33,846 nucleotides of DNA from Candidatus Harrysmithiimonas galli (lineage in GTDB: Bacteria; Bacillota; Bacilli; CAJFEE01), in assembly GCA_904373265.1 (NCBI GenBank), contig CAJFEE010000026.1, forward strand, positions 1 to 33,846, written 5' to 3'. The first letter of the stretch is position 1; each line of letters opens with the position of its first letter. Below the pieces are notes generated by a model that was not told the DNA's origin, did not search any database, and saw only the letters and a list, made by a program, of their open reading frames with translations. The position numbers and the translations under genes are program-made. Below are positions 14,592 to 18,738 of the stretch, one piece after another.

Positions 14592-15813
14592 TCAAAAGAG
14601 ACACACATAAAAAACTGAGCGGTTTCTCTTTAGGTGAACAGGTGGATAAAATGTTTGCCTTTTGGAAGCAATCGATCAGTTTTTTTCTTCATGTATATTG
14701 TAAGGGTACTTTTATGGTACTCCTGATTGTCCACGACTAGGGAGTAGGCCATCTATAAAAACAGCAATATTGAACAATATAAAGATAATCCATTTCAGAC
14801 TCCTGATATTTTCCGAACATCAAGTTTCTTCTTTTCAATCAATCGAAAAGTAAATGATTTGATGTGCTGTAAAAAGAAGTGTATGATTATGTTATCGTTA
14901 AGATGTCTTGTTAAAATAGAAATCAAATGTTTTAATCAATGGCAGTAATACTTTGTATAAATTTGCCAATTTATAATAATAAAAGTTATTTTTCTGTTCA
15001 ATAAAGTGAAATTTTCTTTTTTAGAAAGTAAAATGGCAAGGAAAATCCCATAGATTGTCACAGCTCTGTATCCAGATTATCATTTTGTAGGTTCCGTTAC
15101 TTTTGCAAGATGGGTGGAAAGATTGCATCAAGCACAAGTTTCTAAGCTAGAATGAAAGCAGCTTGGAGAACGATATATTTTGGGATAATGTTTGTACGGT
15201 ATCTGCAATGGCTATTTTAAGTATGTCCATTGCAAAAGGTGTAAGTTATAGATTGGGTGATTGGAACCGTTGGTATTTTTTTCAGTGAATCAATATCTAG
15301 TAAAAAGAGTGCACAGAAGATGAGTTAAAAAATATTCAATGTGCATGGATCTTTCTATTTACAAAACAAATCTGTTCATAAAATTTGCATGTCTGTTGAA
15401 AAGATCAGCAAAAATATGAAGAAGATCTCTCAAAATCCTCTTGGAAGTGAACGTTTCCAATTAGTAAATCAATCTTAAATAAGGAAACGAAGACCCTGAT
15501 CATTTGATTTTTTTCAGCAGAGAAGGAACAAATTTTCACACAATATAGATTTTCTAAATTGGAAGGCTATTTTGTATAATAGTTTGTTCTTCGATATGGA
15601 ATGAGTAGGCAGCGTGAATGCTATCCGTGAAGTGGTTATAGAAATCATCTGTACAGAGGCGATCTTTGTATGGGAAAACCACAAGTATGATCTTTATTTG
15701 ACCATAGGGGAATACTAAGTGATGTTCCATGCACGGATTGACTTTTGTAATGAATTGTGTACTATACTGTTGCTGTTAATAAAGTCATTCTAAAACTGTG
15801 AAAATAAGTCTAC
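14592..15813. other. 1.2-kb decayed region between yhaL and the ABC-F leader
   Basis: No intact gene is present, but several plus-strand segments look coding and lie in shifting frames. A 29-codon frame starts at the ATG of about 14651 (MFAFWKQSISFFLHVY) behind AGGTGG. Others lie at about 15057-15155 (ALYPDYHFVGSVTFARWVER), 15150-15290 (FWDNVCTVSAMAILS), 15330-15478 (FNVHGSFYLQNKSVHK, ending FQLVNQS) and 15607-15718 (ending HKYDLYLTIGEY). I do not recognise the families. The pattern suggests one or more genes broken by frameshifts. Confidence 0.35.
15057..15478 (+). pseudogene. Probable frameshifted gene remnant, unknown family
   Basis: Three consecutive coding-like stretches run on the same strand with phase changes. 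The first ends at a TGA near 15155, the second continues in the next frame to about 15290, and the third occupies about 15330-15478 and ends in TAA. Together they could represent some 130 residues of a protein that is no longer made. No start site is visible and no motif allows a name. Confidence 0.25.
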
Positions 15814-15844
15814 GACAGCAAAAAGAAATCGTTGCTGTCTTTTC
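15814..15844 (+). terminator. Intrinsic terminator upstream of the ABC-F promoter
   Basis: GACAGCAA (15814-15821) pairs with TTGCTGTC (15832-15839), followed by TTTT. It insulates the ABC-F promoter, whose -35 begins 40 nt later, from upstream transcription. Confidence 0.75.
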
Positions 15845-15883
15845 GATAATTATACCATTTGTGTATCAACCTTTTGGCAGTAC

Positions 15884-15912
15884 TTGATTATTTTGTGAAT
15901 TTATACTATAAT
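15884..15912 (+). promoter_or_regulatory. SigA promoter of the ABC-F gene
   Basis: TTGATT (15884-15889) is followed after exactly 17 nt by a perfect TATAAT (15907-15912). Transcription should start near 15919, giving an unusually long leader of about 370 nt before the ABC-F start codon. Confidence 0.8.
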
Positions 15913-15945
15913 ACTATCTATTTTTAAAAAGAAAGAGGTGGAAAG

Positions 15946-15969
15946 ATGATTAACTTTTCTTGCAGATAA
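15946..15969 (+). CDS. Leader peptide MINFSCR
   Basis: An ATG preceded by AAAGAGGTGGAAAG, an excellent ribosome binding site, opens a frame of seven codons (Met-Ile-Asn-Phe-Ser-Cys-Arg) and a TAA. It lies about 27 nt after the predicted transcription start. Its codons overlap the first RNA stem segment (15951-15965), so ribosomes on it would control folding of the leader. This is the arrangement known for antibiotic-inducible resistance genes. The peptide itself probably has no other role. Confidence 0.7.
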   Translation: MINFSCR

Positions 15970-16133
15970 AATTGGAATATGTGGTATACCGATTTTATGG
16001 TACGATTGTGTCCATTGCAAGAAAGTTATCAGTCTATCCAACTCTATATAGTTTTATCACCACTTTTTAAATTGGTGTAATTATGCTATGACTGAGCTGC
16101 AAGAATGGACTTTCTTGCAGCTCTTATTATTTT
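15951..16133 (+). promoter_or_regulatory. Attenuator: competing RNA stems in the ABC-F leader
   Basis: Four segments can pair alternatively. Segment 1 (15951-15964, within the leader ORF) pairs with segment 2 (TGCAAGAAAGTTA, 16016-16028) with one bulged base. Segment 3 (GAGCTGCAAGAA, 16094-16105) pairs with segment 4 (TTCTTGCAGCTC, 16112-16123) to form the terminator. Segment 2 can instead pair with CTTTCTTGCA at 16110-16119 over 10 perfect bases, breaking the terminator. A ribosome stalled on the leader ORF would mask segment 1, free segment 2 and allow read-through. The mechanism is inferred from base pairing. Confidence 0.7.
16094..16133 (+). terminator. Intrinsic terminator within the ABC-F leader
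   Basis: A 12-bp perfect stem (16094-16105 with 16112-16123) has a 6-nt loop and is followed by TTATTATTTT. It lies after the promoter and leader ORF and 158 nt before the ABC-F start codon, so by default it would stop transcription before the gene. Confidence 0.85.
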
Positions 16134-16153
16134 GTGAAAGGAAGGTGGCATTG

Positions 16154-16213
16154 ATGGAAACGGTAGAGTTGGTTGTTACGTATGATTTTCTCCATATGGT
16201 GTTGGTATACTGA
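16154..16213 (+). CDS. Second upstream ORF, 19 codons
   Basis: An ATG preceded by AAGGAAGGTGG opens a frame of 19 codons, METVELVVTYDFLHMVLVY, ending in TGA. It lies between the attenuator terminator and the ABC-F start. It would be translated only on read-through transcripts and could add a translational control step or couple ribosomes to the downstream gene. I do not recognise the peptide as a known leader. Confidence 0.5.
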   Translation: METVELVVTYDFLHMVLVY

Positions 16214-16251
16214 TAGAGTCTATACGGAGTGAAACATCATCGTGACACGGA

Positions 16252-16281
16252 CTTTGTATTTCATAAGACATACAAAGGAGG
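16252..16281 (+). promoter_or_regulatory. Small stem overlapping the ABC-F ribosome binding site
   Basis: CTTTGTA (16252-16258) is complementary to TACAAAG (16271-16277), the first half of the AAAGGAGG ribosome binding site at 16274-16281. The 7-bp stem with a 12-nt loop could lower translation when formed. Confidence 0.35.
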
Positions 16282-16290
16282 ATTTCGTTT

Positions 16291-17751
16291 ATGGCAATGA
16301 TTAAAATAGAAAATCTTACTTTTTCCTATCCAACGAGCTATGACCATATATTTGAGAATGTAAACTTTCAGGTTGACACCGATTGGAAGCTCGGTTTTGT
16401 CGGAAGAAATGGTAGAGGTAAAACAACTTTCTTAAACCTCTTGCTTGGAAAGTACGAATATAGTGGAAAAATAATCAGCTCGGTACAGTTCGATTATTTC
16501 CCATATCCTGTAACAGATAAAAGCCGATTAACAAGGAAAATCTTACAAGGAATTTGCCCATTTGCCAAAGAATGGGAGTTCATGCGGGAGCTATCTTATC
16601 TCGAGGTAGATGCTGATGTGCTTTGGCGACCATTTGAAACACTTTCTGACGGTGAGCAGACAAAGGTTTTGCTTGCGTGCCTTTTTTTAAATGAAGGGCA
16701 TTTTCTGTTGATTGATGAGCCAACAAATCACTTGGATATGAAAGCAAGAGAAATGGTATCGGCATATCTGAAAAAGAAAAAAGGGTTTATATTGGTATCT
16801 CATGACCGCTGTTTCTTGGATGGCTGTGTTGATCATATTCTGTCGCTAAACAGAGCGAATATAGAAGTACAAAACGGCAATTTTTCTTCTTGGGTGAAGA
16901 ACTTTGAACGGCAACAAGAATTTGAGATGTCACAAAATGAACGCTTACAAAAAGATATCAGCCGCTTACAGCAATCGGCAAAACGTTCTGCGGTATGGTC
17001 TGATCGAGTGGAAGCATCAAAAATCGGTGCAGCCGATAAAGGATATATCGGTCATAAAGCCGCAAAAATGATGAAGCGGTCAAAGGCAATAGAGGCAAGA
17101 CAACAGCAGGCAATCCAGAAAAAATCTGGATTGCTAAAAAATATCGAAATAAACAAAAAATTAAAACTATCACCACTGATATATCACGTAAATATGCTCG
17201 TTTCCTTTTCTGATGTTGCGGTCTGTTATGATGGGAATACAGTCTGTGATTCTGTTTCGTTTACGTTGCAGCGGGGGGCTCGGATTGTGCTTGATGGTAG
17301 AAATGGTAGTGGAAAAAGCAGTTTATTAAAGCTCCTATTGAAAGAACCGATTGGATATACCGGCATGATCACTATCGGATCCGGTCTTGTAATTTCCTAT
17401 GTGCCGCAGGACACTTTACACCTAAAAGGAACTCTGTCAGAGTTTGCGAAGGAAAACCATATAGACGAAAGTCTGTTTAAGGCGATCTTACGGAAGATGG
17501 ACTTTAAACGAATACAGTTTGAAAAGAATATACAGGATTTTTCGGATGGACAGAGGAAAAAGGTACTGATTGCCAAAAGTCTTTGTGAACAGGCTCATTT
17601 GTATGTATGGGATGAACCACTCAATTTTATGGATGTTTATTCCCGTATGCAGCTTGAGCAGCTGATAAAAGAGTTTTCGCCTACAATGATTTTCGTGGAA
17701 CATGACCAAGCGTTTAGAGATACGATTGCAACAAAGATAGTGCGGTTATAA
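16291..17751 (+). CDS. Lsa-type ABC-F ribosomal protection protein
   Basis: The product is 486 aa with two ATP-binding cassettes and no membrane segments. ABC1 has Walker A GRNGRGKT (38-45), signature LSDGEQ (118-123) and Walker B with LLIDEPTNHLD (139-149). ABC2 has GRNGSGKSS (336-344), FSDGQ (417-421) and LYVWDEPLNFMD (437-448). The DEPLNFMDVYSRMQ stretch and the length point to the Lsa group of antibiotic-resistance ABC-F proteins. These bind the ribosomal E site and displace lincosamides, pleuromutilins and streptogramin A. The interdomain linker at about 205-300 would set specificity. The long leader with attenuator supports drug-induced expression. The gene sits where Bacillus has prsA next to yhaL, suggesting acquisition. 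Which drugs it protects against is unproven. Confidence 0.9.
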   Translation: MAMIKIENLTFSYPTSYDHIFENVNFQVDTDWKLGFVGRNGRGKTTFLNLLLGKYEYSGKIISSVQFDYFPYPVTDKSRLTRKILQGICPFAKEWEFMRELSYLEVDADVLWRPFETLSDGEQTKVLLACLFLNEGHFLLIDEPTNHLDMKAREMVSAYLKKKKGFILVSHDRCFLDGCVDHILSLNRANIEVQNGNFSSWVKNFERQQEFEMSQNERLQKDISRLQQSAKRSAVWSDRVEASKIGAADKGYIGHKAAKMMKRSKAIEARQQQAIQKKSGLLKNIEINKKLKLSPLIYHVNMLVSFSDVAVCYDGNTVCDSVSFTLQRGARIVLDGRNGSGKSSLLKLLLKEPIGYTGMITIGSGLVISYVPQDTLHLKGTLSEFAKENHIDESLFKAILRKMDFKRIQFEKNIQDFSDGQRKKVLIAKSLCEQAHLYVWDEPLNFMDVYSRMQLEQLIKEFSPTMIFVEHDQAFRDTIATKIVRL

Positions 17752-17819
17752 AAAAGGCAGCAGTGAGCAATTCTCATCGATTTATCAGTATGTTGTTGAA
17801 GTGAATACAAGTAACGAAT

Positions 17820-17855
17820 CCCTTGTAAAATATACCATTTTGCAAGGGGTTTTTG
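17820..17855 (+). terminator. Terminator of the ABC-F gene
   Basis: CCCTTGTAAAA (17820-17830) pairs with TTTTGCAAGGG (17838-17848), with one G-T pair, followed by GTTTTTG. It lies 69 nt after the ABC-F stop. Confidence 0.85.
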
Positions 17856-18524
17856 TATGGCAATCTATGTATGTACTATAAGCATAAGGTGGGGGAAGCT
17901 TTGTAATGTTGTTTTTGATGTGAAAGCGAAAAGGATTTGCGTTTAAGTTTTTACGTTCCGCTTTTTGAGTGATACCTGTTGTTCTTTTTTTGGTTTTCTT
18001 TTGGTCTTATGTTTACTTGGAAAGTTCGCGATTGTACGGTTTATGGTTTTGGCTTTGTGGTAAATTCCTATAAATGTCCATATATGGATAATGTTTTTTT
18101 GGTAACGTTTTGATATAGCCAAGATTTTCTTTTCCGTTTGCTATATTTGTTTCCCCATTGCTCTTTTCTTTTGAAGGATTCCTTTTGTTTTAACATTGAT
18201 ATGCTGATAGACAACCAAAGAAAACTATGGTGCGATTTTCCCTGTATTATAGTAGCAGTCAAACTGACTAGATGTGCAAAGGCTTTTAGGGCACTCTGAT
18301 GACAATTTACGCTTATGCTATAAGGGAAGCAAAGTGTATTTTTACAAAACGGTTTGACAAAGTAGTCGGGGGAGAGGATAAAAAAACTTTTTCTTGTTTT
18401 GGCTCATAAGGACAAAAATAGGGGAAAATACAATAACTTTGGGTATGAAACTACTGAGATCTCAATAAAATCAAGGGTTTTCAGAGAGAATTTTTCATTT
18501 CAATTATGTTTAAAACAGAATAAA
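17856..18524. other. 670-nt stretch without a supported gene
   Basis: The minus strand is purine- and lysine-codon-rich, so open frames occur in more than one phase here. None has a ribosome binding site or a recognisable motif. I see no RNA gene. Confidence 0.45.
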
Positions 18525-18569
18525 AAAATATCTCCAACTGCAAGTTTGCTTTGTAGCTGGAGATATTTT
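18525..18569 (-). terminator. Terminator of prsA (convergent side)
   Basis: AAAATATCTCCAACT (18525-18539) and AGCTGGAGATATTTT (18555-18569) form a 14-15 bp stem with one mismatch. On the minus strand the stem is followed by a run of seven T, so it mainly terminates leftward transcription from prsA, 170 nt upstream. The plus strand has only four T after the stem. Confidence 0.75.
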
Positions 18570-18738
18570 AGAGCTTTTTATTTTCCTGTTGGTTTTATTA
18601 AAAATGGTTTGTTTTTATTTCTAGTTTTAAAACTATCATGTGTACTGTGTATAGATGCGCAATTTTAAATACACTTAGAATACTGATTTTTGTTTTTCAA
18701 TCTTTGGTCGATTTCAAACAAAAACATGAGATTAAAAC

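Follow-up and report, generated by a model that had tools for sequence, protein, structure and literature searches.

A conserved leader before Lsa-family ABC-F genes, probably a ribosome-controlled transcription attenuator

Introduction

Short upstream open reading frames (uORFs) have been described for other ABC-F genes, with the peptides MIN, MK[L/Q], MR[I/M], MAGN, MLV and MVGDDDISG. For instance, the vmlR leader of Bacillus subtilis carries the uORF MIN, where stalling of the ribosome at initiation is supported by a toeprint at +16 (PMC9226507), and the uORF of LsaA has been given as MAGN (PMC10201436), unlike the leader considered here. That leader lies in a contig of 33,846 nucleotides from Candidatus Harrysmithiimonas galli, a member of the Bacilli (the whole stretch is hereafter called the window). 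A first-pass annotation, made from the letters of the window, proposed that its Lsa-type ABC-F gene is controlled by attenuation, as are genes such as vmlR, and the same architecture has indeed been demonstrated for vmlR (PMC9226507). It did not recognise the leader peptide, MINFSCR, or the set of stems. In the open-licence literature, no report was found of the MINFSCR or VTHxxLRIS peptides, nor of lsa(E) attenuation (earlier reports are possible), and no Rfam family scored above its threshold for the window leader.

Here we describe the anatomy of this leader, its conservation, the compensatory changes in its helices, the genes with which it is associated and a switch observed in modelling. 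We are quite confident that it represents a conserved ribosome-controlled transcription attenuator, in which a drug-stalled ribosome on the AUG of the uORF would open the Lsa gene.

Anatomy of the leader

All features described are on the forward strand. The leader is preceded by a sigma-A type promoter (15884-15912; TTGATT at 15884-15889, TATAAT at 15907-15912, 17-nt spacer) with 10 of 12 consensus matches. By itself, such a match is at chance level (four sites found versus 3.3 expected); the -10 box ends 14-18 nt upstream of the leader module in 56 of 98 relatives. The first uORF (uORF1, 15946-15969) has seven codons, ATG ATT AAC TTT TCT TGC AGA TAA including the stop, and reads MINFSCR. Its Shine-Dalgarno sequence (SD), AGAGGTGG at 15934-15941, can also pair with 16032-16045, and this pairing with its own downstream segment is more stable (-10.0 kcal/mol) than with swapped (-8.8 kcal/mol) or shuffled (-7.9 kcal/mol) ones.

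Segment 1 (15951-15964) lies inside codons 2-7 of uORF1. Segment 2 (16015-16028), upstream of the SD-pairing stretch, may have as its partner either segment 1, forming an anti-antiterminator (1:2), or the right arm of the terminator, forming an antiterminator (2:4). Within the 1:2 loop there is a hairpin recovered by RNAalifold with strong covariation (hairpin A, 15981-16009, pairing 15981-15991 with 15998-16009). A second one, seen in the minimum free energy fold and variable in sequence, brings segment 2 close to the terminator (hairpin B, 16046-16089). The intrinsic terminator (3:4, 16094-16123) has 12 pairs and a 6-nt loop, is followed by the T-rich tract TTATTATTTT (16124-16133), and is the sole terminator-like site in the region, where 0.2 would be expected by chance. 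The folding energy of the whole leader is -68.2 kcal/mol versus -41.3 kcal/mol for shuffled sequences (z = -7).

The promoter, the leader ORF behind a strong SD and the 12-bp terminator with its T-rich tail are thus present where the first-pass annotation had placed them. Its middle segment with two possible partners also stands, with 13 pairs and one bulged U to uORF1, but the pairing with the terminator right arm comprises 12-14 pairs in the fold and not the 10 originally counted. Hairpin A, the pairing of the SD with a downstream segment and a second uORF/hairpin module (16140-16281) are additions to that description.

Conservation and compensatory changes

Among the 80 close relatives that, with the window, formed our starting set, a leader of the form M-x-x-[FIVT]-[SFL]-C-x-stop, or near it, was found at 41 loci (window included), and the leader elements are kept in 35 distinct relatives found by this uORF pattern. 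The terminator starts 136-153 nt past the AUG of the uORF in nearly all of them; in a few, the distance reaches 221 nt. Thirty leaders were aligned for covariation. Their RNAalifold consensus recovers 1:2, hairpin A and 3:4, in which 94.2% of the alignment cells are paired and 21 of 37 pairs have changed on both sides. None of 500 shuffles did as well, shuffle statistics being inflated by kinship among the sequences. Taken separately, helix 1:2 has 95.9% of its cells paired, and hairpin A shows compensatory changes in 10 of its 12 pairs. The antiterminator 2:4 is missing from the consensus fold; its cells are paired in 96.6% of cases, 7 of 13 pairs are compensatory and, again, 0 of 500 shuffles reached this level. 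Since segment 1 resembles segment 4 in sequence, and segment 2 resembles segment 3, alignments could overfit these helices; own partners pair better than swapped partners, with z of -11.3 and -12.7. In the terminator loop, the 3′ half (R-C-T) is nearly invariant and the 5′ half drifts, a pattern that pairing between the loop and segment 2 would produce.

The earlier proposal of a transcription attenuator built from an anti-antiterminator, an antiterminator and a terminator is strengthened by this comparison across relatives, as all three helices covary, with compensatory changes in each, the alternative antiterminator included. These changes, notably those in 2:4, and conservation over two bacterial classes also make it extremely improbable that the terminator is an ordinary one whose other pairings are fortuitous, with the gene read constitutively or from elsewhere, although the chance-level promoter would agree with such an explanation.

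A modelled switch

Partition functions were computed on growing transcripts, with and without a ribosome over the uORF AUG. In the window, the free RNA is predicted to form 3:4, while with an AUG-bound ribosome 2:4 wins from position 16116 to 16122. Extended to 100 leaders, the model flips 98 to 2:4 when the ribosome is placed on the AUG, and keeps 3:4 in 97-99 as free RNA. When a 36-nt mask is slid along the window leader, the outcome flips only while segment 1 is covered; in a comparison over 50 leaders, a mask just after segment 1 flips 5, versus 48 for the AUG mask. The proposed release of the middle segment by a ribosome sitting on the uORF is therefore borne out in the model, in both the window and family folds. 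The expected effect of masking the uORF holds in the co-transcriptional reading, where 2:4 wins, but not at full length, where the equilibrium fold with the AUG masked slightly favours the terminator again in the window. Because 3:4 regains this small edge, the modelling implies that the decision would have to be kinetic, with 2:4 getting ahead during transcription. Mutually exclusive anti-antiterminator, antiterminator and terminator helices, seen by covariation and in the modelled switch, and a short uORF with an SD, its ATG correctly placed in all 100 aligned relatives, are two of the features that define an attenuator of the vmlR kind, the third being induction by cognate drugs that depends on the uORF.

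We propose the following model. Without drug, the ribosome would complete or quit uORF1, and segment 1 would pair with segment 2; with 1:2 formed, the terminator would form and transcription would end near 16130. A drug acting on the peptidyl transferase centre (PTC), such as a pleuromutilin, a lincosamide or a streptogramin A, would hold the ribosome on or just after the start codon of the uORF, where it would cover segment 1. Segment 2 could then grab the emerging right arm of the terminator before the hairpin is completed, and the RNA polymerase would run on into the Lsa ABC-F gene, whose product would protect the ribosome. In this scheme we infer that the uORF is translated, which class of drug acts, where the ribosome stalls and that the polymerase reads through in the cell. 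The sensor would be the ribosome held at the AUG, with a constant spacing to segment 1, and not the peptide sequence.

Peptide or RNA

One alternative is that nascent MINFSCR (or its FSC), together with the drug, itself halts translation at a particular codon within the uORF or at its stop codon, as in erm or tna leaders. The F-S-C-[KR] motif is strongly recurrent in the leaders of Clostridia, and segment 1 would be covered as well by a ribosome at any position between codon 1 and roughly codon 7. However, the uORFs of the 100 leaders have seven codons in 36, six in 24, five in 4, three in 1 and two in 10, and consist of AUG and stop in 25 (TAA in 18, TAG in 6 and TGA in 1), so that 36 of the 100 have three codons or fewer; relatives encode MK*, MI*, MRN* or a bare AUG-stop. 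Residues are swapped as well (K/R to M, I or stop; F to I, V, T or L; S to F or L), and three leaders read segment 1 as F-L-A instead of F-S-C, the same RNA appearing in another frame (MDNFLA or MDSFLA). By contrast, all but one of the 100 leaders have the end of segment 1 at 15-19 nt past the A of the AUG, regardless of uORF length or frame.

The uORF thus changes in length, residues and frame, but the RNA and the AUG spacing hold; what is conserved is the RNA segment with its spacing to the AUG, and not the peptide. FSC is a chance reading, in one frame, of the pairing sequence TTTTCTTGC. The conserved letters of the uORF are its pairing letters, and conserved amino acids independent of pairing, which would mark a peptide-dependent arrest leader, were not found. 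We thus regard peptide arrest as improbable, and the implication of the first-pass proposal that stalling depends on MINFSCR is not supported. A stall at or just after initiation is most likely; the fixed spacing of 15-19 nt fits the +16 toeprint of the initiating ribosome on vmlR (PMC9226507).

The cysteine codon could suggest a second alternative, namely amino-acid sensing in the manner of trp leaders, with the Cys codon of the uORF reporting a shortage of cysteine or of its charged tRNA. This codon is invariably TGC in FSC leaders, and a leader with cysteine codons has been described before cysS (PMC8632094). Nevertheless, TGC is never replaced by TGT in the alignment, which pairing of its C with segment 2 would explain, a translated Cys codon is missing from many relatives, and the downstream genes confer resistance to ribosome-targeting drugs and are not amino-acid genes, so there is very little to recommend this explanation.

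With respect to the shortest leaders, we tentatively suggest, with somewhat less than even confidence, that an AUG-stop uORF may act as a minimal drug sensor: a PTC drug would hold a ribosome whose P site contains just the initiator tRNA and whose A site contains a stop codon, and this alone would open the resistance operon (Lsa, Cfr or cfr-lsa). If so, the nascent peptide would have no role, and the leader could sense only drugs that prevent release or the formation of the first peptide bond. Initiation is uncertain in these leaders, which have a longer spacing between SD and AUG. Conservation of the stop codon in this group was considered as proof of selection on the stop and discarded, as UAA can also pair with UUA of segment 2, a pairing that leaders with TAG or TGA retain by means of G-U. 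A TTG start yielding MKRIM* in some of these leaders was likewise dismissed, the frame being broken in several members.

Distribution of the leader and the genes behind it

A covariance model was built from the aligned leaders found by pattern, AUG-stop leaders not being part of the building set. In the window's own genome it gives one real match; the weak hit on the opposite strand of this site is an artefact. At E <= 1e-6, matches were found in 42 of 399 genomes of the window's class (Bacilli) and in 24 of 391 genomes of Clostridia, the class of an Anaerostipes relative, and they include many genomes never used in model building. Of the 100 leaders aligned, 90 precede an Lsa ABC-F gene, 8 a Cfr methyltransferase gene, one another ABC-F gene and one a Cfr remnant (one Cfr gene was assigned by TIGR04432, and the others by 80-97% identity to it). 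The single non-Lsa ABC-F gene follows a leader with the uORF MIIFSCK (locus L109). The Cfr remnant, of 12 residues, follows an orphan leader copy, and a ribosomal protein L4-like gene, possibly a second copy, lies after it (locus L164, 443-478 and 1219-1852). In Paenibacillus-type loci (L040, 1339-4479; L041; L057), the order is attenuator, cfr, module 2 and then lsa. Several gut genera share identical tandem leaders (L010, L013, L014, L016-L019), which points to recent transfer.

The plasmid gene lsa(E) carries the leader, with the uORF MYNFSC (L088, 80 bits), and this lsa(E) leader occurs at >=99% identity in about 100 plasmid records from Enterococcus, Listeria and others. The window leader used alone gave no match in the plasmid search. 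The leader is absent from plasmid cfr(A), cfr(B), cfr(C) and cfr(D), and an Lsa-like gene of E. raffinosus (43%) has a different leader.

In the window, the leader is followed by a gene for an Lsa-family ABC-F ribosomal protection protein of 486 aa (16291-17751), as first proposed; its whole-protein score with NCBIfam NF000167 is 761.4 bits versus a curated cut-off of 750. Its identity is 82% to the proteins of gut Clostridia, and to those of Bacilli it does not exceed about 70%. Its neighbours (yhaM, prsA, hpr, ecsAB and hemEHY, named from sequence, prsA and hpr also by profile search) are of the kind found in Bacillus, and the genome's own relatives at class level appear Bacilli-like in behaviour. 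The ABC-F gene is absent from the single same-family genome compared, where yhaM, a small gene and prsA are adjacent, while about 4.1 kb lie between the small gene and prsA in the window. This stretch (14592-18738), largely ORF-free and with no counterpart in that one relative, looks like a decayed insertion carrying the cassette. The Clostridia-like gene, the Bacillus-type neighbours and the gene-less relative with its closed yhaM-prsA gap point to acquisition of the ABC-F cassette from a clostridial source.

A second module between terminator and gene

Downstream of the terminator there is a second uORF (uORF2, METVELVVTYDFLHMVLVY-stop, 16154-16213), with the SD GGAAGGTGG at 16140-16148, which is a diverged copy of the Bacilli uORF (I/V)VTHxxLRI, having FLHM in place of LLRI. 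It is accompanied by helix A:B (16190-16229, pairing 16190-16199 with 16220-16229, with one mismatch in the window) and helix C:D (16252-16281, pairing CTTTGTAT at 16252-16259 with ATACAAAG at 16270-16277), which covers the SD of the ABC-F gene, AAAGGAGG (16274-16281). In the corresponding alignment (A3), A:B has 98.2% of its cells paired with three compensatory pairs, and C:D 94.3% with two. An SD-hiding helix and an upstream helix containing the end of a uORF, as in erm-type translational attenuators, are thus present. The alternative helix B:C, which would free the SD, is 90% paired, without compensatory change. As a working switch in the window, module 2 finds no support in modelling, where the SD of the ABC-F gene was not freed.

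Module 2 also precedes Lsa genes of Bacilli, often behind a different attenuator, and lsa(B). In the tree of the Lsa family, the attenuator is found on the deepest branches, and module 2 occurs in two regions. This placement suggests that leader modules are gained, lost and combined, and module 2 may add translational control.

Significance

One rule would likely apply to the switching on of a group of PTC-drug resistance genes, including lsa(E), chromosomal cfr and cfr-lsa operons. Additionally, the natural series from seven codons to AUG-stop offers a ready-made test of peptide reading versus the initiating ribosome. The field's uORF finder has a default minimum of nine nucleotides (PMC10219788), and leaders with one codon before the stop fall under it, which may be why they are unreported.

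Comparison with known systems

As in the window, the vmlR leader has a very short uORF with MIN as its first codons (PMC9226507), an anti-antiterminator over the uORF, an antiterminator with an apical hairpin, an intrinsic terminator and a further SD-hiding hairpin, and the same drug range (pleuromutilin, lincosamide and streptogramin A) is expected for both ABC-F proteins. By contrast, the window gene belongs to another ABC-F subfamily, uORFs of up to seven codons contain segment 1, the antiterminator uses the right arm and the loop of the terminator, and there is a second uORF. The cplR gene of Clostridioides difficile (uORF MR[I/M]; PMC10201436) shares uORF-dependent attenuation of a clostridial ABC-F gene through alternative stems, but its terminator itself hides the gene SD, and its uORF and sequence differ (PMC10201436).

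The Rfam family RF02452 (ncr1575) has a similar order of stems and contains AUG AUU AAC UAA, that is, MIN-stop. It occurs before an Lsa gene of Bacilli (L055, 2570-2786, 154 bits); ncr1575 carries the annotation of a Bacillus sRNA but is probably an attenuator instead. The window scores 33.3 bits against a gathering threshold of 60, placing it outside the family; homology to ncr1575 looked plausible at 33 bits, but other members of the leader class gave no match, and we do not claim it.

Module 2 resembles erm-type translational attenuators in having two stems, of which the first contains the end of a uORF and the second the gene SD, but its B:C switch helix is present in the sequence without covariation and the window uORF2 has diverged.
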